The notes under the pieces were generated by a model. That model made no database searches. It had not been told where the DNA came from and saw nothing but the letters and a program-made list of their open reading frames with translations. A stretch of DNA of 64,000 nucleotides from Onthophagus taurus. Its lineage: Eukaryota > Arthropoda > Insecta > Coleoptera > Scarabaeidae. The stretch lies in contig NC_091973.1 of NCBI RefSeq assembly GCF_036711975.1, forward strand, positions 13,020,001 through 13,084,000, written 5' to 3'. Both the position numbers and the translations under genes were made by a program. The first letter of the stretch is position 1, and each line of letters begins with the position of its first letter. Below are positions 2,027-23,141 of this stretch, piece after piece.

Positions 2027-2123
2027 TGTATGATGTATGTGAAGTTACTAAGAACTGTACAGCTGATGTCGTTAGTTTTAAACTTCAATGAATTTATCAA
2101 AACCCTTACGGTAACGTCCCTTA

Positions 2124-2765
2124 CAAGGGAAGTGTCACAACTGTGTCTCACCGATTTCGATGCAATTTGGTACAGTCATAGAATGGGCCAAAATAAGGTT
2201 CGTACATTTTTTTATACGTGCGGTAAAAGCCCCTGGGGCGAGTTATAGGGGTTGAAAGTTTGGAGAAAAAGTACGTTTTCACTTATATTTTAAAAATGAA
2301 AAGTGCTATCAAAATTTGGTAAATTGTAACTGATATTCATTTTAAAAGAGCTTTCTTTTGATGTATCACACATATACCAGAGGGTTAAGAAGGGCGAACT
2401 ACCCCTATTTTTTTGGAATTATTTAAAAACCACCCTATCGATTTTGGCGGCATTAAGTATACTTCCAGCACGTTCAAAAATATTAGTTAAGGGTTTTTTC
2501 CCATTCGCTCTAGATCATCCCCAGCGAAGTTACGGGGGTTAACATGTAACCACTTTTCGTAAGAATGATGTGATAAAATTGTCAGGTATTTTGAAAATAC
2601 TTTAACAAAACCGTAAATTAGTCGCACAATAAAATGTTTAATGTAAAATAAGGCATAATACACCATTTAGGGGTGGTTGGGGTTAACCACCCCCTTAAAA
2701 ATTAATTCTATCCCGGGCATTACTTGTTGATTACGGCGAAATTTGGTACTGTGTTTGTTTTATAT
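2124..2765 (+). repeat. left terminal inverted repeat
   Basis: 642 bp, highly similar to the reverse complement of 4862-5504 with only scattered differences by eye. It begins CAAGGGAAGTGTC and ends near GTGTTTGTTTTATAT. It has many internal stops and no gene. Confidence 0.9.
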
Positions 2766-2892
2766 AGTTTATTAGTTTATTTTTATTCTACATAATGTTG
2801 CCAAAAATACACCTACCAAAAAAATTTTGGCACAATATTTGTTTTTTTAGTGCCGCTTGCTAAAGGTCATTTCTCAAAATAGTTTTTTCTAG

Positions 2893-2900
2893 TATAAAAG
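2893..2900 (+). promoter_or_regulatory. TATA box of transposase
   Basis: TATAAAAG lies about 36 nt before an initiator-like TTTCAGAG (about 2928) and 51 nt before the transposase ATG, in the non-repeated part of the element. The spacing fits a standard RNA polymerase II core promoter. Confidence 0.6.
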
Positions 2901-2950
2901 AACGTGTGCCCAGTGGGTAGATTTTAGTTTCAGAGCAACTGACAGAAGCA

Positions 2951-4540
2951 ATGGTTACAATAAACCCAATAAACGTTTTAAATTTGCTAATGACAGTTTT
3001 TACTGTTATGAATATTCCCCAGACTCCTGTAAATGAAGCAGAAGTTAGTTTAAAAGAAAATATACAGCGTATTTTAATGGAAAGTATGGAAGACTACAAT
3101 ATGCAAATTGAAGACGAAACTGTATTAATTTTCGATTCATCCAATGGCATCAATGACGGTCAGCAAATTATTGAAGACCAGGATACAACTGACAGGTTTG
3201 TAGAAGATACTGATGCTCATTGTCCATTGAAGGATGACATCGACTACGAGTACAAATTAGAGGCGGTAAATTACTGGACAAGTGGGAAGAAAGGTTATTT
3301 GAAACTAGAAACCGTAAAAAACAAATACCGAAAAGTAACGTCAAAGACCCAATTGCACAGATGGTCTAAATATATTGAAGAAAGAGGGACATACAAAGAA
3401 AAATTAGCAGAAATTACCGAATTTGTAATTAATCAAGCGAGAGCCGCCGTAGATAATAAATTGCCACTACATGATATTGATATACGCAGATGGGCTATAC
3501 AAGCTAGAAATGAAAAGAATTTATCTCCTCAACTGTTCAAAGCATCTCATAGCTGGGTGCAACGTTTTAAGAAAGCAAATCGGTTAGTAAGCCGAAAAAT
3601 AACAAAATTTCTATCCCAAAAACAAATTGGAAATGTTGATCGAGTAAAAACTTTAGCAAAAGATTTCGTTAAAGAGGCAAAGCTACAAATCCAAATATAT
3701 GGACCTGAAAACACCTACAATTCGGATCAGAGCGGTTTTAACTTGGAATTCCATTCGGGAAGAACATTAAGCGATTTAGGAGTTAAAACCGTAGAAAGTG
3801 TGGTCCAGTCGGTGTCATCTACAACGCACAGTTACACAATTCAACCCGTAATATCTGCTGATGGGAAACTTCTTTCTCCACTTTTTATTGTTTTAAAAGA
3901 ACCCTCTGGCAGCTTTGGACCGAGGGTAGCAAATACAATGTTTAAAGCAGACAATATATACGTTTTGGCATCAAAATCTGGAAAGTTAACTTCAGAACAC
4001 ATGAAAAATTGGCTCCAAAATGTATATTTTCCAAATACTGGTTCTAAATCATTATTATTATTAGATTCTTGGAGTGGCCATTGTCCTGAAGTTATTAGTG
4101 AAATAACTCCATCAGGTACTAATTTTAAACATTTATCTATACCTGCAGGGACAACAGGTCAAATACAGCCCCTAGATGTATTTGGTTTCAGAATATGGAA
4201 AAATTTTATTAGAAGATTCTCTGATCAGATTATTCTTTACCAGTATGATGTCAATTTACATCAGAGGGATATCATATTAAAATTGCAATCGTTGACGCAT
4301 AACCAGTTGGCTTCCCCTCGGTTTATAAATGTTTTTAAATACGCATGGTTTGCAAGTGGCTATATAGAGGAGAGACCAGACCATTTTGAAAATCCCGTGG
4401 AAGTTTGCTTTTCGAGTGAGAAGCCAACGTGTGATATCTGTGGGGATATAGCGGTCATAACATGTGCATGGTGTAAAAAATCCTTATGTTTAAAACATTT
4501 TTTCCACGACTTTCATTTTTGCCAACACTACGTAGAATAA
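2951..4540 (+). CDS. DDE_1-type transposase
   Basis: An intact 529-residue transposase. Residues ~80-140 and ~145-225 look like tandem helix-turn-helix DNA-binding regions (KYRKVTSKTQLHRW; SHSWVQRFKKAN). The catalytic core has a first Asp in NSDQSG (~259), a second in LLLLDSWSGH (~370) and a third in QPLDVFGF (~408), the D-D-D spacing of the DDE_1/pogo group. A Cys/His-rich tail (CDICGD, CAWCKKSLC, HDFHFCQH; ~495-527) resembles a small zinc-binding module. It sits alone between the inverted repeats with its own TATA box. No disabling change is seen, so the element could be active. A Sola-like placement is an alternative I cannot exclude. Confidence 0.85.
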   Translation: MVTINPINVLNLLMTVFTVMNIPQTPVNEAEVSLKENIQRILMESMEDYNMQIEDETVLIFDSSNGINDGQQIIEDQDTTDRFVEDTDAHCPLKDDIDYEYKLEAVNYWTSGKKGYLKLETVKNKYRKVTSKTQLHRWSKYIEERGTYKEKLAEITEFVINQARAAVDNKLPLHDIDIRRWAIQARNEKNLSPQLFKASHSWVQRFKKANRLVSRKITKFLSQKQIGNVDRVKTLAKDFVKEAKLQIQIYGPENTYNSDQSGFNLEFHSGRTLSDLGVKTVESVVQSVSSTTHSYTIQPVISADGKLLSPLFIVLKEPSGSFGPRVANTMFKADNIYVLASKSGKLTSEHMKNWLQNVYFPNTGSKSLLLLDSWSGHCPEVISEITPSGTNFKHLSIPAGTTGQIQPLDVFGFRIWKNFIRRFSDQIILYQYDVNLHQRDIILKLQSLTHNQLASPRFINVFKYAWFASGYIEERPDHFENPVEVCFSSEKPTCDICGDIAVITCAWCKKSLCLKHFFHDFHFCQHYVE

Positions 4541-4861
4541 AAATAAATTTAATATTGAAAATTAATATAATACATAAAAAACGTCAATTAGTAATGTAGA
4601 ATAAACTTCTTTGGTATATTGAACTATTTTTTTTGTCAGTTGCTTTTTAACTCATAAATAAATAAAATATCTTATTTATCTAGTAGTTTTATATTTATTA
4701 TTTAAAGAAAATGAGGGTAGTTTACCTCGTGGAACATCGATAGATAGATTTTTAAAAAACAATACCACAGTTACGATGGCAGTTTTCATCTTCGAGGTAT
4801 AAACAAAAAACTACCCCTAATTTGTAACCCTTATAACCATTTTCAAAAATTTTTACTTCAA

Positions 4862-5504
4862 ATATAAAACAAACACAGTACCAAATTTCGCCGTAATCGA
4901 CAAATAACGCCCGGGATAGAATTAATTTTTAAGGGGGTGGATAACCCCAACAACCCCTATATGGTGTATTATGCCTTATTTTACACTAAACATTTTATTG
5001 TGCGACTAATTTACGGTTTTGTTTAAAGTATTTTCAAAATACCTGACAATTTTATCACATCATTCTTACGAAAAGTGCTTACATGTTAACCCCCGTAACT
5101 TCGCTGGGGTTGATCTAGGGCGAATGGGAAAAAACCCTTAACTAATATTTTTGAACGCACTAGAAGTATACTTAATGCCGCCAAAATCGATAGGGTGGTT
5201 TTTAAATAATTCCAAAAAAATAGGGGTAGTTCGCCCTTTTTAACCCTCTGCTATATGTGTGACACATCAAAAGAAAGCTCTTTTAAAATGAATATCAGTT
5301 ACAATTTACCAAATTTTGATAGCACTTTTCGTTTTCAAAATATAAGTGAAAACGTACTTTTTCTCCAAACTTTCAACCCCTATAACTCGCCCCAGGGGCT
5401 TTTACCGCACGTATAAAAAAATGTGCGAACCTTATTTTGGCCCATTCTATGACTGTACCAAATTGCATCGAAATCGGTGAGACACAGTTGTGACACTTCC
5501 CTTG
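4862..5504 (-). repeat. right terminal inverted repeat
   Basis: 643 bp, the inverted partner of 2124-2765, ending GACACTTCCCTTG. It begins about 320 bp after the transposase stop. The 4541-4861 interval between them is AT-rich 3' UTR with AATAAA-type signals just after the stop (about 4542). Confidence 0.9.
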
Positions 5505-6316
5505 TTAGATACACTATAATCTAAATCAATAACTAGGATGCCGTGTCTATTCTCCCAACAAGCGTCGCTAATTTCCTTTAACCGATGAAACTCCATATCT
5601 TCAAACACGTGTTTTAAATATGTTAGGTCTTGTTTAAATAACACTAAAAAGTTACAATTATCGGGAACTAATTGTTTTGGAATTGCACTATAACTTTGAC
5701 AAATTAGAAAGCAATCAATGTTTTTATGCCGACCATACGAAAAAAATTCCTTAATGACATTTTGATCTGTACAGGAAACATCGTCAAATACGACTATCGA
5801 ATATTCTTTCGCATCTTCCGGTCGAATGAACTCATCTATATTAGAAAATTCATAGTAACTGAAATCTTTTATAGGTTCAATTAAACGTCTTAAAAAATCG
5901 TACTTATTTTGGTATAACGAATTGGAGCATAAGTATAAGTTTAGGAAGCGGAGGCCATTACGTGCAAGTAAAAGCGATAACATAGCATTTGTTTTTCCGA
6001 CATCAGAGGGTCCTACAATTAAACCTCGCTTACATTTTCCACCAAATAAATTACTGTGTCTTGTAAAGTGTTCTTCGGTCGTACCTTTACTAAAATTTAG
6101 TATTGGCAGTGTTAGCGGTTGCGGTAAACACTTTAGTTTCTTATCGATCATGATTCTCGCACTAAATGAATTATGACATTAACAGGATAAGACTGAATAA
6201 AAATGTAGCAAAAGTAACTTTATATAGAGACATAAAATATATTGATTAATATAAAAATAATATCAATGTAACTTAATAATTATATATTGGAATCCATGTT
6301 GCAAGTTAAATATGTA

Positions 6317-7154
6317 ATAAATAATAAAATAACTTCTACTTGCTTTATTTAAATATACAGTCGTACATGTTTCAGGAAATTATTCCCATCTTCAGCGACA
6401 AGCTATTAAAATAATGAAAATCACATTAAATATTAATCTTATGGTAACATTTAAAATCAAATAACTAGAATTAAAAATGAAAAGTGAACTATGAACATGT
6501 TAAAAAGAACTCACCGTCAGGAACCGTAAGAAGGATCACAAACCAAGCAAAACATATAAAAAACAATACTTTTCCAAAGGAAAAACCATGTTAAAATGAA
6601 TTCAAAATATAATAAAAATTTTTAAATGGCTTTAAAGTTACGTTAAATCTAAGACAAAAAGGAAATAAAATTAAATATATTAGAGAATAAAAGAAAGAGA
6701 GTCTTACCTATAAAAATATAAATAACAAATCAAACATTAAAATTAAATTGTAAAAAACATATAAGGTATAACATTAAATTTGGTTTGTTCATTTGGAGGA
6801 TTGAAAGACACTGAAGGTGAAACCAGATATATCCAAAAGGAACGAAAAACAGGAAAAAAGGAAAAGACCCCCCCCCAAGACAAAGAAAGAATATATGAAA
6901 AGGAAACATCAGGGTAACTAGTTTCAAGACTGCGGAAATATTTAACAAATACAAAAACATAAAATTCAAAAAATCTTGTACATCCTAAATAAGATAATTA
7001 AACAATGGTTTGTCATTATTACAAATTTGGTCATTAATAACATTAAGTTTGTTGTTCTTTTTATGTTTATGAATCTCCAATAATTCCAATAATAAATCCA
7101 ATTTGTAACTTTTTTGGCATTTATGAATTAATTTTACATCTTTGTAATTTATTA
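6317..7154 (-). repeat. Penelope left arm (inverted)
   Basis: About 838 bp, the reverse complement of 8435-9270 with few differences. It contains a homopolymer run and an open reading stretch (6730-6969) mirrored by 8618-8857. The mirrored reading is probably a by-product, not a gene. A hammerhead-like motif lies near its outer end. Confidence 0.88.
6360..6401 (-). ncRNA. hammerhead-ribozyme-like motif, left arm
   Basis: On the minus strand, GTCG is followed by CTGAAGA, a short hairpin (GGGAA/TTTCC) and GAAAC, then CGAC closing the outer stem. This is the CUGANGA...GAAA core of hammerhead ribozymes, which are known in Penelope elements. Cleavage ability is not shown. Confidence 0.55.
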
Positions 7155-7169
7155 CAAAGATCCGAGATT

Positions 7170-8440
7170 ATGAATCCGAAAATACCGAGACTTTATGCTT
7201 TACCTAAGATGCATAAAATTGACATACCTATCAGACCCATTCCTTCTTTTAATTCTTCACCAACAACAAAAATAGCCGAATTTTTAATGATAATTTTTAA
7301 GAAAATAGATTTTAAACCTACATATTCAATCTCAAATTCTATTAACTTCATAGATAAAACTAAAATGCTCAATTACAAAAATAAAATTTTAGTCTCCTTT
7401 GACATCACCAATTTATATGCCAATGTACCTATTGATCTAACTTTAAATTTAGTATCTAATATGTTTAATGATTATTTTAATGATAAAAATACAGTCAAAA
7501 ATTTAAATATGTTACTCAAACATTTAGTCACCCAAAATTATTGTTCATTTAATAATGAATACTTTCACATTTCAGAAGGTTTACCGATGGGAATGCCTCT
7601 ATCAGGTTTATTGTCAGATATTTTTTTAAATCACATAGAAAAAGATTTTATAATGAATAATACTAATCCTTTTAGACATAACATTTCAAATTGGTTACGG
7701 TATGTAGACGATGTCTTTCGTGTTTGGGAAGGTGATGAAAATTCGATTATTAAATTTAGTGAGTTTCTTAATAATATTCATCCTAAACTTAATTTTACTT
7801 ATGAGATGGAAATAGAAAAAAGTATAAATTTTTTAGATCTAAAAATCACTCGTACAGATGAAAATATAACTTATAACATTTTTAGAAAACCTACAATGGT
7901 TCCATCTACTATACCTTTTAATTCTGCTCATCCATTAAATCATAAATTGGGAAATTCCAGATTCCTTATTAATAGATGTATTGATTACCCTTTATCTGTT
8001 GAAAATAGAAATATGGAATTTAATTATATATATAATTTAGCGAAAAATAATGGTTTCCCAAAAGAAACTATTAATAAACTTATAATTAGCATTCAACAAC
8101 AGAAAGATCCATTATACATTAAAACAATAAATACTTTAATTTACAAATCTATTTCTTATAACTCTATTTCCGCAGAAAGCAATTTCTTATTTAAGAAATA
8201 TAATATTTCATTAGCATATACAAATAATAACACTTTATATAATTTACATTCCAATCATCATATAAAAGAAAATAATCAAATGAAAGATAGTGGGGTTTAT
8301 TCTATTGAGTGTTGCAATTGCAATAGTATATATATATAGGTCAAACTGGACGTAAACTCCAGGAAACACGCATTAATGAACATAAAAATAAAGCTCAATC
8401 CAATGTTTTCAAACATAAACTGAGACAGGTCATGTAATAA
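7170..8440 (+). pseudogene. Penelope reverse transcriptase/GIY-YIG endonuclease (truncated, frameshift)
   Basis: This protein copies element RNA and nicks the target. The RT core runs from PRLYALPKMHK (residues ~6-16) through LVSFDITNLYANVP (first Asp), GLPMGMPLSG and the YVDD box (residues ~180-183). The GIY-YIG nuclease starts at the extreme C-terminus (GVYSIECCNCNSIYI). A one-unit expansion of a TA run at about 8326-8336 shifts the frame and stops the ORF at 8337-8339. The GQTGR continuation is in another frame to about 8440. The N-terminal ~200 residues usual for the family are missing. Apart from this shift the RT is open for 389 codons. Confidence 0.9.
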
Positions 8441-9270
8441 ATTACAAAGATGTAAAATTAATTCATAAATGCCAAAAAAAGTTACAAATTGGATTTATTG
8501 GAATTATTGGAGATTCATAAACATAAAAAGAACAACAAACTTAATGTTATTAATGACCAAATTTATAATAATGACAAACCATTGTTTTATTATCTTATTT
8601 AGGATGTACAAGATTTTTTGAATTTTATGTTTTTGTATTTGTTAAATATTTCCGCAGTCTTGAAACTAGTTACCCTGATGTTTCCTTTTCATATATTCTT
8701 TCTTTGTCCTGGGGGGGGTCTTTTCCTTTTTTCCTGTTTTTCGTTCCTGTTGGAATGTATCTGGTTTCATCTTCAGTGTATTTCAATCCTCCAAATGAAC
8801 AAACCAAATTTAATGTTATACCTTATATGTTTTTTACAATTTAATTTTAATGTTTGATTTGTTATTTATATTTTTATAGGTAAGACTCTCTTTCTTTTAT
8901 TCTCTGATATATTTAATTTTATTTCCTTTTTGTCTTAGATTTAACGTAACTTTAAAGCCATTTAAAAATTTTTTATTATATTTTGAATTCATTTTAACAT
9001 GGTTTTTCCTTTGGAAAACTATTGTTTTTTATATGTTTTGCTTGGTTTGTGATCCTTCTTGCGGTTCCTGACGGTGAGTTCTTTTTAATATGTTCATAGT
9101 TCACTTTTCATTTTTAATTCTAGTTATTTGATTTTAAATGTTACCATAAGATTAATATTTAATGTGATTTTCATTATTTTAATAGCTTGTCGCTGAAGAT
9201 GGGAATAATTTCCTGAAACATGTACGACTGTATATTTAAATAAAGCAAGTAGAAGTTATTTTATTATTTA
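8435..9270 (+). repeat. Penelope right arm (3' end)
   Basis: About 836 bp downstream of the RT/endonuclease gene, in sense orientation; it is the inverted partner of 6317-7154. It holds the element's 3' noncoding region and a hammerhead-like motif near 9188-9227. Confidence 0.88.
9188..9227 (+). ncRNA. hammerhead-ribozyme-like motif, right arm
   Basis: Same core as in the left arm: CTGAAGA, hairpin GGGAA/TTTCC, CTGAAAC, closed by GTCG/CGAC. Its presence near both outer ends of the element matches the usual location in Penelope pseudo-LTRs. Confidence 0.55.
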
Positions 9271-9323
9271 TAACTTAATAATTAACTTAAAAATTAACTT
9301 AATAAAAAGAGGAGAAGGAGTAG

Positions 9324-9666
9324 TTACCACTCCTCCTCTTCTGGATGTAATTGGTTCGTTTCTTCGTAAGGCGGTGGTGCTGCTGGTGCCGGAGTCGTTG
9401 CCAGAGTCGTTTCCGGAGTCGGTGAACTAACGGCTGTGGTGCAGTGGTTAATGTGCATGTTGTGCACATGCACTTCGCCCCTCACCACAGCCGATTCTGA
9501 CACACTCTGCACCTAAAAAGATAAAATTAATGACTTGGAAAAAAGGATTATAAATATAACGTACCAATTTAAACAGCGCCTCTACTTTCACCTCCAACGA
9601 GGCAACTTTCCGCTCCACATTACATAATCTGATCATATGATTATAACTCATGTTGTTGGAAGTCAT
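9324..9666 (-). CDS. two-exon small protein with PPPY motif
   Basis: A predicted 96-residue protein from two exons: 9565-9666 (34 codons from ATG) and 9324-9512 (62 codons plus stop). The joining 52-nt intron (9513-9564) begins GTACGT and ends TTTTTAG, and the phase is maintained. Exon 1 has a short heptad-like helix (VERKVASLEVKVEALFKL). Exon 2 is Thr/Pro-rich and ends in PPPYEE followed by EEEEW. PPxY is a ligand for Nedd4-type WW domains and a late domain in some virion proteins; that role here is inference. A TACTAAT branch-site sequence and CTTCCTAG lie just upstream of the ATG, so it is probably spliced to the same leader as the 9832-10674 gene. Confidence 0.55.
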
Positions 9667-9831
9667 CTTTAAGCTAGGAAGGGAAGTTTACGCTATTAGT
9701 AGTGAAACTAGATAAAATAGATTCAGCCTTTTTAATTTCACAGGTTAATGATGCTATGGTGATGTCGAGCGATATTGTTAAAGGGTTGTTACAGCTCGAC
9801 GACATCCCTTCTCTAAACTGTGAAAGTTCTC

Positions 9832-10674
9832 TCAAGAGGTCTGCAATTGAAGAACCTTTGCATGAAGGTCTTTATAAAAATTTTGATACAAACTATTAAT
9901 TTCGGCCAAAATCTCCCCTTTGGTTGTTTCTACTGCTGTACACATTGCGTTTGAAAGAAGGCTGGCAGACACATCGGAAATATCTGAAGTAGCAGGAATA
10001 TTAGTAGGAATATTAGCAGGAATATTGTCAACCCTTAAGATGTGTACTTTCGGACTTAACGAAGGAATTTCGGTGTTAGGGATATTTGAGTTAGTAACGG
10101 GAACCAATGAAGCTTTAGAAGAAGAAAAAGAAGCCTTAGTAGCTTTAAGATACTTCCGGTTACTACAGTGTTGTGATACCGCCATTAAAGCAAGACAGTC
10201 GTCGGATTTATCGGACTCGTTCTCGGTAACCACTTTCGACTGTGTCATTTCAACCTGCGACGGGGTCGCTGGTTCAACTGACACATACTTGCGTTGGCTA
10301 CGTCGCGAACGAGCACGTGCCTCCCTTCTTTCTTGTTTTTCCTCTCTATATTTTTCTGACGGTACCCACACACCTGCAGCCTTCTTCCAATGTTCACGGT
10401 TCCCCGAATTCCGACGAAGTGAAAGGCGTTTCACATTTTTATCGTCGACATTCGCGGAACCTGCGACGTTCAGAAGCGACGGATCTTGCTGCGCATTAGA
10501 TTCCACGTTAGGATCCATCGGCTGCTCATTAGGCTGCACGTTTGGATCCAGCGCCTTCTCAACAGTCGATATGTTCAACAGGTTTATGTCAAAACTGTTT
10601 AACAGGAATGACTCCTGGCTGCTGGCGAAACCGGGAGCAGTTAAATCAATTTGACTAAAACCGTCTTGAGACAT
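9832..10674 (-). CDS. spliced Maverick A protein of unknown function
   Basis: A 280-residue ORF. I choose ATG 10674-10672 (MSQDGFSQ) because it lies directly at a 3' splice site (TTTTTTATCAAG). An upstream in-frame ATG at 10695 falls inside the intron. The protein is acidic and Ser/Asn-rich at the N-terminus. A basic RE/RS-rich block follows at ~110-140 (KYREEKQERREARARSRR), then low-complexity regions and a C-terminal helix. I recognise no enzyme motif. It has a TATA/GC-box promoter and a leader of seven short exons. It lies between the ATPase and capsid genes of Maverick copy A in the same orientation. It could be a structural or regulatory protein of the element, or a captured host gene. 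Confidence 0.6.
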   Translation of the reverse strand: MSQDGFSQIDLTAPGFASSQESFLLNSFDINLLNISTVEKALDPNVQPNEQPMDPNVESNAQQDPSLLNVAGSANVDDKNVKRLSLRRNSGNREHWKKAAGVWVPSEKYREEKQERREARARSRRSQRKYVSVEPATPSQVEMTQSKVVTENESDKSDDCLALMAVSQHCSNRKYLKATKASFSSSKASLVPVTNSNIPNTEIPSLSPKVHILRVDNIPANIPTNIPATSDISDVSASLLSNAMCTAVETTKGEILAEINSLYQNFYKDLHAKVLQLQTS

Positions 10675-11420
10675 CTTGATAAAAAAGAGATTCATACATT
10701 AATTTATTTTATTTTAATAAAAAATCATGTATACTTACATCGCTTGATGAAAAGAACGTTAAAATCTAATTGCAGTGGGTGCTGAATGATAGGATGTGAA
10801 TGGTAAAAAATTATTGTAGATATTATGATACAAACGTTCGAATAATAATGTTATGCTTACCAACAAAAATTAAGATTTAAAATAGAAGGAGCTATAGAAA
10901 TGAAAAAAACAGATTAGCAACAATATATGCAAAGGAAAAGAAGGCTATACTTACCAGAAAAAAGTCGCCGAGATAACGAAGTTATCAAAACTGATCGACC
11001 TGATCAAACAGAAAATGGAAGTGATCAGTAGTAAGATCCTGTAGGAATTGAAAAAATAAAAATAACAATTTAACATAACAAACAAATAAACAAGTTGTAC
11101 TCACAAAAACAAAGTAGAAAGAGCTGTTATGATGAAACAAAACAAGAATATTTTACATATTATATAAGCAAAGTAAAAAAGGTTACTTACCAAATAAAAC
11201 ACGTCAGCAAAAAAGAGAAACCTGAAGGATGTCTAGGACTGGGAAAAAAATAATTTTAAAAATTATATAAACATGCAAAACAAATATAGTTTTACTCACC
11301 TAAAAAAAGAGAAAGTTGTAGAAAGAGCCTGTAGTGATGGAGAGAAAATGAACGTTATATAAACATGAAAGTAAAGAAGGTTGTACTTACCAAAAAACTG
11401 AAGAACACAAACACTCAAGT
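10675..11420 (-). other. multi-micro-exon 5' leader (7 exons, 7 mini-introns)
   Basis: Reading the minus strand from the TATA box, every GTAAGT/GTGAGT/GTAAGC donor is followed 62-79 nt later by a pyrimidine-rich tract and AG. Inferred leader exons are ~11391-11420, 11300-11328, 11191-11221, 11105-11123, 10955-11038, 10861-10891 and 10739-10781. Introns are 11329-11390, 11222-11299, 11124-11190, 11039-11104, 10892-10954, 10782-10860 and 10675-10738. Three exons begin with similar CTCTTTCTAC-like sequence, so exon plus intron seem to have been tandemly duplicated. The last acceptor abuts the ATG. No long ORF exists here. Splicing is inferred from signals only. Confidence 0.65.
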
Positions 11421-11446
11421 GACTTTCAAAGGCTGGGAGGTGCCTT

Positions 11447-11530
11447 CTTATAGTAAAGTAATGAAGGGGGGCGTGGGGTGGGGCGTGGAAAGGGGGAGGA
11501 GTGAGGAATGGGCGGAGTTAGAGTGGGGGC
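11447..11530 (-). promoter_or_regulatory. TATA box with GC/CACCC boxes
   Basis: On the minus strand TATAAG (11452-11447) lies ~32 nt before an initiator-like TCACTT (around 11420). Immediately upstream are CACGCCCC, CCCCACCCC and CTCCGCCCATTCC boxes within a C-rich stretch (G-rich on plus). This is a strong, compact RNA polymerase II promoter driving the multi-exon leader. The region stands out from the AT-rich surroundings. Confidence 0.7.
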
Positions 11531-11790
11531 ACTTTTTTTCTGGGTCAACTTTCCCGCAAATTGGGGGGGGGGAATTTTAGATTACAACTCCGAATCCCCA
11601 CTCCCATCCCTACTCTTCCATCTCCACTTTTGGGAGGAGCCTGAGGAGGAGCATGGGAGGAGCTTCAATAAACAATCCTTTTCCCTTTTCCTTTTTCTTT
11701 TTTTCTTCTTTTTTCCTCTTTTTTTCTTCTTTTTTCCTTTGTTCCTCTTCTTTCCTTCTTCTCTTCCTTTTTCTTGATTTTTCTTTTCAA
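11531..11790. repeat. low-complexity pyrimidine tract
   Basis: The plus strand has a nine-G run (11562-11572), then CT-rich sequence of TTTTCTTCTTTTTTCC type from ~11680 to 11790. The open frames here are low-complexity and not genes. The tract may be part of the upstream promoter region or a 3' UTR of the 11935 ORF. Confidence 0.6.
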
Positions 11791-11934
11791 TTTACAACAA
11801 TTTTTACAACCCAACAGTACCCAACCCAACGTATACAAATGCTTTTTTCTTTCAAATTAAAACAACTTTTTATGCTTTTTACAATCTTTTATTATTATTA
11901 TAATTTACAATCTATAACTGACAATGTTTATATA

Positions 11935-12378
11935 TTAAACCTTACATAAAGAACAATCCTTTCTTGCCGATGGTGGACCATCAATATGCGTTTCCCAATG
12001 AGGCAAATTATAATGTTCAAAACAGGGCAGCTTGCTTTGTAATCGCTCATCGTTTCTATACTTCAACGGTAATTTAAACCAAACCGCCGTCAAATCTAAT
12101 GGCTTTACTTTATTGATATAATAATCGATTGGTAAATAACACAATTCGTAGTTTTTAATATTCGCAAAAGATAAATCAGATTCGTATCTTTCCATAATAT
12201 CCCACACTTTATTAATTATAAAAGTTGAAAGTCCCAATCTGGTAACTAACCGCCAAAGACGTTCCATCTTGAACTGCTCTACCGCTACTACTCGTCTGCC
12301 TTTCTCAATTCGTTTACATATAGTTATAGATTTCTGAATACGTATGAAAATAAATAAAAAACATTCGACAAGGAGCAC
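11935..12378 (-). CDS. unassigned Maverick A ORF with C-terminal CxxC
   Basis: An open frame of ~147 codons. The first true ATG lies inside it (MERLWRLVTRLGL...), giving ~110 residues. It is basic at the N-terminus, contains DLTAVWFKLPLKYR, and ends with a short Cys pair (CSLCKV). It overlaps the end of the upstream ORF (12324-12821) by 55 nt in another frame. It may be a separate gene or the frameshifted tail of that ORF. I do not recognise the family. Its position between the spliced gene and the major capsid gene, all minus, suggests a Maverick accessory protein. Confidence 0.4.
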   Translation of the reverse strand: MLLVECFLFIFIRIQKSITICKRIEKGRRVVAVEQFKMERLWRLVTRLGLSTFIINKVWDIMERYESDLSFANIKNYELCYLPIDYYINKVKPLDLTAVWFKLPLKYRNDERLQSKLPCFEHYNLPHWETHIDGPPSARKDCSLCKV

Positions 12379-14363: not shown

Positions 14364-15095
14364 TCAATTTATCGATCTCAGGTGAACTCTCACTGTTATT
14401 TCTTCTTCTCTGAAGTCTACCAAGTTTCCGTCCTGATCAAGTATACGTACTGTTAAGCTACTAATCACGTTCGTTAAAACCGGTAAATAAATAGGCAGTT
14501 GTGGTGATTCGATTATTTTAAAACCTGCCGGAACGTTTGGGAAAAAATGATATAAAACGTGCACGGGAACTCCGTTATTATACGATCCCGTCACTAAATT
14601 ACAATAAATTTGTAAGGCGTTCGTTTTATTTATGTTTACTACGAAATCGGATTCCACTTCCGTATCTCTAGGTAATATTTGAGGCTTGAAGCCAAGTAAC
14701 GGCCCTATAGAATTATCGCATGCAAAATTAATTCGACGCGTACTTTTTATTAAAGAATGTTGTGTGTTATTATTCCCTTTAATCCTTATTACGACTCCTT
14801 TAGCGTGTCTTATCTCTAGCTGTTCATTCACGAACTCGGCAATATCATCAATATCGTACGTTCCAACCGGTACTATTATATTATTTTTAAAATGTCCTGT
14901 CTTATCTTCGTATTGGATTACGTTGTTGCTTTTATCAACGTTTGCTAAACTATTAAACGTTTCGAAATTTAAAAGAGCCAACTCGTAACTACCAAATTCG
15001 TTCAAATAGATCGGAGGATTAAAATTACAAGTCAATTCGGATGACTTTCAGGTCAACGTAAATGTATATGTCGTGTGTATTGCTTCTTTCTCCAT
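14364..15095 (-). pseudogene. Maverick penton (minor capsid) protein, one stop
   Basis: This is the single jelly-roll penton/minor capsid protein. I place the start at ATG 15095-15093, in frame with the long open frame. One TGA at 15048-15050 interrupts residue 16, probably a CGA to TGA change. Thereafter 223+ codons are open. Typical blocks are NFNPPIYLNEFGSYELAL near the start, LLGFKPQILP mid-protein, and the GSYNNG and LPIYLPV region. It lies between protease and major capsid genes, the usual structural cluster. Alternatively translation starts downstream of the TGA, but conserved family sequence precedes any ATG there. Confidence 0.75.
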
Positions 15096-21501: not shown

Positions 21502-22909
21502 GCTGAAAATTGTTTTATTTGTCAAAATCCTTTCACATCCGATCAGGTTAAGGTTCGTGATCATTGTCACATAAGCGGTAAATACCGCGGTCCCGCCCAT
21601 TCAAATTGTAAACTAAATTTCAAACTTCAAAACATTATTCCAATATTTTTACACAATTTTAGTGGTTACGATTGTCATTTATTTATTAAAGAAATGGCTG
21701 ATGCGGATGAAGATGGACTTGATGTATTGCCGAACAATAAAGAAAACTACATCAGTTTTAGTAAAAAAGTGTTGGTCGATAAAGTAATTGACGAAGATAG
21801 ACGTGTTGAAAATATTTTTTTAAAATTATGATTTGTGAATCCATTTAGATTTATGGCATCTTCATTAGATTCTTTAGCTGGTAACATAGATGGTAACACA
21901 TTGAACATTTTAAATTGCTAACCAAAAAAGGTTATCTTTCCATACAATTATAAAACCTCTTTCGATAAACTAAATGATACCTCACTACCGCCTAAAAGTA
22001 TGTTTTATAACAAATTAACTTTAGAAGACATAAGTGATGAGCAATGTTTGCACGCGCAACATGTGTGGAAAGAATTTAATTGTCAAAACTTAAAAGAATA
22101 TTCCGACTTGTACTTAAAGACTGATGTTCCTTTATTAGCCGATGTTTTCAAGAAATTTAGACGTATATGTTTTAAAACGTACGAATTGTTAACGGATATA
22201 GATCAAGTTCATTTTGTTAAAAAAGGTATCCGTAGGGGTATTTCCCAATGCTCCCTACAACATGCTAAAGCAAACAATAAATATGATGAAAATTATGATG
22301 CTAATTCACCCTCTGAATTGTTAATGTATTGGGACGTTAATAATTTGAATGGGTGGGCGATGTCTCAATTTATACCCGTTTCCGATTTTAAATGGCTGTC
22401 TGAAAACGAAATAAAAAATTTAGATTTTAATAATATACGTGATATTTCCGATTTTGGGTATATTTTAGACGTTGATATTGAATACCCCGAAATTTTACAC
22501 GATTTACATAATGATCTCCCGTTCCTAGCTGAAAACCTATTACCACCTAACGGTAAATGTGAAAGTGATAAAAGATTAATTCCAAATTTATATAATAAGA
22601 AAAATTATGTTGTACATTATAGAAATTTAAAACAAGCCGTTGCTCACGGCCTTAAAGTTTGCAAAATTAATAGAGTTTTATCGTTTAGACAGTCTGCGTG
22701 GTTGAAATCTTACATCGATAAAAATACGGAACTACGTCAATCAGCTAAAAACGCGTTTGAAAAAGACTTTTTTAAATTAATAAATAACGCGGTTTTCGGT
22801 AAAACTATGGAAAATGTTGATAAGAGAGTCGATATAAGATTAGTCACCAGTGGGGAAGACGTTCAAGGTCAGGGAGCGGGTAGACCAAAATTAATCGCTA
22901 AACTACATT
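21502..22909 (+). pseudogene. Maverick copy B DNA polymerase B, N-terminal and central part
   Basis: Protein-primed family B DNA polymerase of Mavericks. The open sequence starts at AENCFICQNPF with the HCHISGKYRG block, then HNFSGYDCHLF (exonuclease region). There are in-frame stops at 21829-21831 (TGA) and 21919-21921 (TAA). From 22000 it is open for ~300 codons with YWDVNNLNGWAMSQ (motif A, first catalytic Asp) and NNAVFGKTMENV (motif B). It is cut at 22909 by the BEL element. The expected ~350 N-terminal residues are absent. The two stops show decay before or after insertion. Confidence 0.88.
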
Positions 22910-23141
22910 TGTTTAGGCAACCCAAATAACAAACCAAATTTTTTTATGTAACCATGACGATTTTGTCGATTTCAAATGTTATAAATAAAACAAGAAGCCA
23001 TTATTGTATTCGTTATTAAAACGACGCTTTTTATTCGATCCTCTGAAGAATTCAACGTCGAACCCCAATTCAAGTAAGAACTTTCTTATTTTTCTTTCGA
23101 ACCAACACCTACAATTATTCCCGACATTTGTCGCGCGAACA
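22910..23141 (+). repeat. BEL 5' LTR
   Basis: 232 bp from TGTTTAGGCAACC to CGCGCGAACA. It differs from the 3' LTR at a handful of positions by eye and by one T in a homopolymer, so the insertion is recent but not brand new. Confidence 0.93.

Follow-up and report, generated by a model that had tools for sequence, protein, structure and literature searches.

The tripartite leader of adenoviruses consists of three short noncoding leader exons, which are carried by the major late mRNAs and lie behind a TATA promoter. Multi-exon 5' UTRs with minimal introns are also found in insect genes. A 64,000-nucleotide stretch of the genome of the beetle Onthophagus taurus (referred to here as the window) contained a series of seven predicted short introns immediately upstream of a gene, ORF1, of a mobile viral element. 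Like the adenovirus major late unit, this locus combined a TATA promoter with noncoding leader exons, the splicing of which was read from gene models only, and adenoviruses are likewise DNA viruses of a related capsid lineage, with viral mRNAs that depend on host splicing. In contrast to the three leader exons of adenovirus, the beetle element had seven, with introns of 61 to 79 nt and an apparent triplication of a cassette. Furthermore, the capsid genes lie downstream of the adenovirus leader, whereas the recognizable ones lay upstream in the beetle element, and one adenovirus leader serves many mRNAs, whereas the beetle gene models contained only ORF1 and ORF1-to-ORF2 joins. The parallel with adenovirus late transcripts drawn in the original prediction for this DNA held in part: a multi-exon leader was conserved and apparently spliced, but the number of exons and the location of the capsid genes upstream of the leader departed from the adenovirus arrangement. 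The multi-exon 5' UTRs of insect genes resemble the leader in their canonical GT-AG sites and in having introns near the minimal size but differ from it in that the beetle leader had seven introns within 750 nt, was part of a mobile viral element, and contained a two-exon cassette in three-fold form.

Maverick/Polinton elements and adintoviruses share with the beetle element a double-jelly-roll capsid, an A32-like ATPase, a PLA2 ORF, and dozens of genomic copies. No title or abstract reporting a multi-intron leader was found in the Maverick/Polinton/adintovirus literature within coverage, which took in few of the subscription papers, and titles and abstracts on adomavirus splicing, insect tripartite leaders, and Onthophagus taurus Mavericks contained no such leader. 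The available portions of PMC11071296, PMC8363768, and PMC12220804 made no mention of a spliced leader in such elements.

Gene content of the host element

Pfam searches of the minus-strand ORFs near the leader identified a double-jelly-roll major capsid protein (PF21738; E value, 9.9e-84), an A32-kind packaging ATPase (PF04665; E value, 2.6e-7, above the cut-off), and a PLA2-domain protein. A putative adenain-like protease ORF had a weak Peptidase_C5 match (E value, 0.087) below the cut-off, and a match to protein-primed DNA polymerase B (PF03175), a candidate gene of this copy, was located at 22000 to 22929 on the plus strand, the strand opposite to the leader. The capsid, PLA2, and protease-like ORFs were at 12.9 to 16.4 kb, upstream of the leader on the same strand. 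The minus-strand ORF at 15047 to 14367 may be penton-like, an assignment for which profiles and solved structures gave no support. The copy in the window was damaged, with a broken capsid frame, and the element extended beyond the left end of the window. On the basis of this gene content, the host is a Maverick/Polinton or adintovirus-type provirus, and the Maverick/adintovirus-like setting that had been predicted was borne out by the capsid, ATPase, and PLA2 ORFs. Two stretches inside the element, 2120 to 5508 and 6311 to 9277, had long inverted-repeat arms (95 to 98%); we take one of them to contain a transposase-like ORF and the other a reverse-transcriptase-like ORF.

Relatives of the element were found as proteins in beetles, ants, and Rhodnius. 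Capsid queries run three times against viral contigs identified no relatives outside the O. taurus genome, and a tblastn search of phage records with the capsid protein gave no match. A PLA2 protein that was 52% identical to that of the element (P0242) was named as originating from an Enterobacter cloacae complex assembly, and it is probably insect DNA inside that assembly. A second capsid family, with 70 to 72% identity, accounted for 61 of the 131 capsid matches; most of its members had equal scores and a frame of 420 codons without interruption, a pattern suggestive of the recent proliferation of a related Maverick. When the 5' portion of the leader served as a DNA query, with 40 of 65 candidates scored, comparison by eye placed no match within 10 kb of these 61 capsids; this absence carries little weight, because the family may be too diverged at the DNA level.

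A chain of predicted splice sites upstream of ORF1

On the minus strand from 11421 to 10675, seven GTRAGY donors (at 11390, 11299, 11190, 11104, 10954, 10860, and 10738) alternated with seven acceptors, as read directly and re-checked, and the region from 10600 to 11500 contained no further GTRAGY motif on the same strand. All of the following features are on the minus strand. The leader promoter included a TATA box, TATAAG (11447 to 11452), which was present as TATAAGA in 36 of 36 alignable copies, and a start-like context, TCACTT (11422 to 11417). The predicted leader then comprised exon 1 (11391 to 11421; approximately 31 nt, its start placed about 30 nt past the TATA box); intron 1 (11329 to 11390; 62 nt; GTAAGT/CTACAG); exon 2 (11300 to 11328; 29 nt; CTCTTTCTAC type); intron 2 (11239 to 11299; 61 nt; acceptor variable among copies); exon 3 (11191 to 11238; 48 nt); intron 3 (11124 to 11190; 67 nt; GTAAGT/TAACAG); exon 4 (11105 to 11123; 19 nt; CTCTTTCTAC type); intron 4 (11039 to 11104; 66 nt; GTGAGT/CTACAG); exon 5 (10955 to 11038; 84 nt); intron 5 (10892 to 10954; 63 nt; GTAAGT/CTATAG); exon 6 (10861 to 10891; 31 nt; CTCCTTCTA type); intron 6 (10782 to 10860; 79 nt; GTAAGC/ATTCAG); exon 7 (10739 to 10781; 43 nt); and intron 7 (10675 to 10738; 64 nt; GTAAGT/ATCAAG). 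The exons were assigned by reading of the sequence. The final acceptor AG (10676 to 10675) adjoined the ATG at 10674 of ORF1 (MSQDG...; reading frame 9832 to 10674), for which no Pfam family above the cut-off and no solved structure were matched. Direct reading thus confirmed the TATA box, the initiator, the seven donor/acceptor pairs, and the last acceptor at the ATG, as well as exon lengths of 19 to 84 nt; the claimed intron range of 62 to 79 nt became 61 to 79 nt, since one intron measured 61 nt.

A chain was defined as a series of GTRAGY donors and HAG acceptors with introns of 55 to 85 nt and exons of 15 to 90 nt. The observed chain contained seven introns, and 5000 dinucleotide shuffles yielded chains of 0 (3733 shuffles), 1 (1241 shuffles), or 2 (26 shuffles) and none above 2. 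Among 1262 overlapping 901-nt stretches from both strands of the window, 11 had a chain of more than 2, and all 11 overlapped the leader locus. This plain count superseded an earlier chain score with a heavy per-intron penalty, which returned only three introns and placed the locus first among 422 stretches and above 500 of 500 shuffles. T made up approximately 49% of the exons and 47% of the introns, and T-rich DNA often contains acceptor-like motifs, in line with a chance series of splice-like motifs; however, given that no shuffle exceeded a chain of 2 and that, among the copies described below, splice positions were conserved next to neighboring positions that had changed, we consider such a series extremely improbable.

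Homology among the two-exon cassettes

Three cassettes, each with two exons and two introns, were mutually alignable over nearly their full length on the minus strand: cassette 1 extended from the end of exon 1 through intron 2 (11239 to 11405), cassette 2 from the end of exon 3 through intron 4 (11039 to 11205), and cassette 3 from the end of exon 5 through intron 6 (10782 to 10969). The three pairs scored 48, 41, and 34, whereas their shuffles averaged 16.7, 15.2, and 16.0, and each observed score was reached by 0 of 1000 shuffles. With the splice signals masked, the observed scores were reached by 0, 2, and 3 of 1000 shuffles, the last two values being those of pairs 1-3 and 2-3. In genome searches, cassette 1 also matched beside cassette 2 in other copies. 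That the leader grew through triplication of a cassette with two exons and two introns is well supported by these alignments. The proposal that an exon-intron unit had multiplied was therefore correct as to internal duplication, but the unit was a two-exon cassette and not one exon plus one intron.

Agreement with RefSeq gene models

P0007, a RefSeq protein model labelled isoform X2, was computed independently of the present analysis; isoform models of this kind normally rest on transcript alignments. The copy to which the model mapped, on contig C6, was rearranged, with a fusion of the PLA2 ORF to leader exon 2 and an interruption of exon 4. Three junctions of the leader, together with one more located inside ORF1, accounted for the model. 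A spliced-alignment script joined the exon 5 donor to the acceptor at the ATG, the acceptor of intron 7, and skipped exons 6 and 7. The intron 2 junction and a junction from the exon 3 donor to the exon 5 acceptor were read from the frames by eye, so that in this related copy the model translates exon 3 and uses both splice sites of exon 5. The intron between exons 3 and 5 would span approximately 17 kb owing to insertions, and the reading of P0007 must therefore be treated with care. A further model, P0001, started inside intron 7, which implies either retention of intron 7 or an error in the model.

Two models also contained junctions downstream of the leader. The C terminus of P0007 required a splice from a site within ORF1 to one immediately ahead of ORF2, and in P0008 the ORF1 donor GCAG/GTGTGT was joined to an acceptor that, in copy L078, preceded the ORF2 ATG by 8 nt. 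The corresponding intron in the window was 700 nt long (9674 to 10373, minus strand) and ended 7 nt before the ORF2 ATG (9666). P0008 additionally crossed a short intron inside ORF2, which by comparison with L078 corresponded to a 52-nt intron at 9513 to 9564 (minus strand). The donor and acceptor of the ORF1-to-ORF2 join recurred in many copies; in the subfamily of the window, the join would terminate ORF1 at a stop immediately ahead of the ORF2 start codon, and in the other subfamily it would create an in-frame fusion of the two ORFs. The use of this recurrent acceptor by P0008 and P0007, together with an AG immediately preceding each of the ATGs at 12267 and 793, is consistent with a leader shared as in adenovirus, whereby the same leader exons would be spliced onto ORF1, ORF2, and perhaps the ATPase and the ORFs at 2026 and 793. 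However, both models joined ORF1 to ORF2 and not the leader directly to ORF2, the hexon, PLA2, and protease-like ORFs were upstream of the promoter, and AG before ATG is common; we regard a shared leader as rather unlikely.

Conservation among copies in the O. taurus genome

The conservation data were obtained from copies within one genome, that of O. taurus. Proteins related to ORF1 were O. taurus entries, the element being multi-copy there, and 108 genomic pieces matched ORF1, many of them stop-free. The DNA search with the leader gave at least 41 matches (40 of 87 candidates scored); among the matches listed, 21, including the window, spanned the whole leader at 92 to 100%, and 12 did so at 82 to 83%. 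A search with the joined leader (40 of 48 candidates scored) produced exon-by-exon matches only and no spliced copy. A match in L035 across the exon 5-exon 6 join was rejected as a spliced copy, with intron 5 present and the tail attributable to chance. Near-identical copies were clustered in repeated units at C11:4060000-4102000, and a series of fragments with a spacing of approximately 117 to 146 kb was present at C10:15171000-15703000.

A total of 93 anchors at the start of ORF1, some of which represented the same copy in two loci, yielded 60 upstream stretches that were distinct from one another, at least one of which was cut by the end of a locus. The full seven-intron chain was present in 40 of the 60, and the other 20 had shorter chains. 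At sites 1 to 7, donors were kept in 47/59, 46/53, 49/59, 52/59, 56/60, 57/59, and 54/60 copies, respectively, and acceptors in 47/56, 49/53, 51/54, 53/55, 57/59, 59/59, and 60/60. Many site losses were due to truncation of copies inside the leader, and point losses occurred in some full-length copies, such as L009 and L006. The comparison of sister copies for loss of GT/AG dinucleotides, which had been proposed with the original prediction, thus found the series kept in intact relatives. The exon 3 acceptor (AG, 11240 to 11239) was not fixed, being AG in 11 of 37 alignable copies and CCAC in the other 26, which kept AGs further downstream, and indels were present in exon 5 among copies.

The copies formed two subfamilies, which were near-identical over the promoter and the leader as far as intron 2 and diverged between intron 3 and the ATG. 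This combination of a near-identical 5' half (11239 to 11460) and a differing 3' half (10675 to 11190) suggests past recombination or gene conversion between the subfamilies. The majority letters of the two subfamilies were compared over 10600 to 11190, using 12 of the 28 sequences of the first and all 12 of the second. In the diverged part, no differences were found at donor GT (0/10), donor +3 to +6 (0/20), donor -1 (0/4), or acceptor AG (0/10) positions and one was found at acceptor -3 (1/5); differences were present at 73/294 other intron positions, 36/173 exon positions, and 7/74 positions of early ORF1. Exon divergence was thus near intron divergence. TATATAA motifs within introns 1 to 3 of the window, each approximately 31 to 43 nt upstream of the next exon (exon 2, 3, or 4), could represent serial promoters that start separate short transcripts, the splice-like motifs being secondary, but the intron 3 motif was missing from the second subfamily, and the seven conserved donors and the RefSeq junctions would be left unexplained; this arrangement is very improbable.

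Predicted spliced product

Among 28 distinct full copies, which represented 34 copies, the predicted spliced leader was 273 to 300 nt long and lacked ATGs in 27, and the unspliced leader contained 5 to 8 ATGs, with 8 in the window copy. Taken alone, the lack of ATGs in the exons did not reach significance (P = 0.084). The folding of the spliced leader was not unusual (MFE, -37.4; shuffle mean, -37.9), and an Rfam search of 9300 to 12300 found nothing.

The near-equal divergence of exons and introns is relevant to the proposal that the leader is spliced and its extra cassettes are functionless, having arisen as harmless tandem duplications that were kept since losing an existing site is harmful. 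The exon 5 indels and the structure of P0007, which lacked exon 4 and skipped exons 6 and 7, agree with this proposal, but most copies kept all donors, no reduced version predominated among the copies examined, and the spliced product was almost always free of ATGs. Because the exons diverged almost as much as the introns, neutral cassettes remain a serious alternative, to which we assign a lesser but appreciable probability.

Discussion

The likely reading of the locus is that a nuclear provirus of the Maverick/Polinton type has a multipartite 5' leader that is spliced and that grew by cassette triplication. As predicted, the spliced leader is well supported by its anatomy, its conservation, the homology of its cassettes, and the agreement of gene models with three junctions. 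Among the points that weaken this reading are the computation of P0007 on a rearranged copy, the variable exon 3 acceptor, and the similar divergence of exons and introns. In the proposed mechanism, RNA polymerase II would start near 11420, downstream of the TATA box, and the host spliceosome would remove up to seven minimal introns. A leader of approximately 285 nt without an AUG would thereby be delivered to ORF1, with the AUG at the last acceptor. Since the leader of the window contains eight ATGs before splicing, ORF1 may be translated efficiently only after the introns have been removed. The string of short introns may also favor export and expression, and exon skipping and intron retention would produce transcript variants.

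Judging by the literature found, RNA processing in Maverick/Polinton elements has apparently been little studied. A seven-intron leader in dozens of copies would, if the reading is correct, mean that such elements depend on the nuclear spliceosome of their host, and the leader junctions would provide ready split-read markers of Maverick activity. The leader is also a case in which growth by cassette duplication is visible. A broader view, which we hold to be doubtful, is that active insect Mavericks use an adenovirus-like multipartite spliced leader that is common to several ORFs and expands by cassette duplication, in which case spliced leaders would be a trait of the adenovirus-Polinton lineage and not an adenovirus invention. 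The leader therefore bears on whether the splicing of adenovirus late leaders has older roots.
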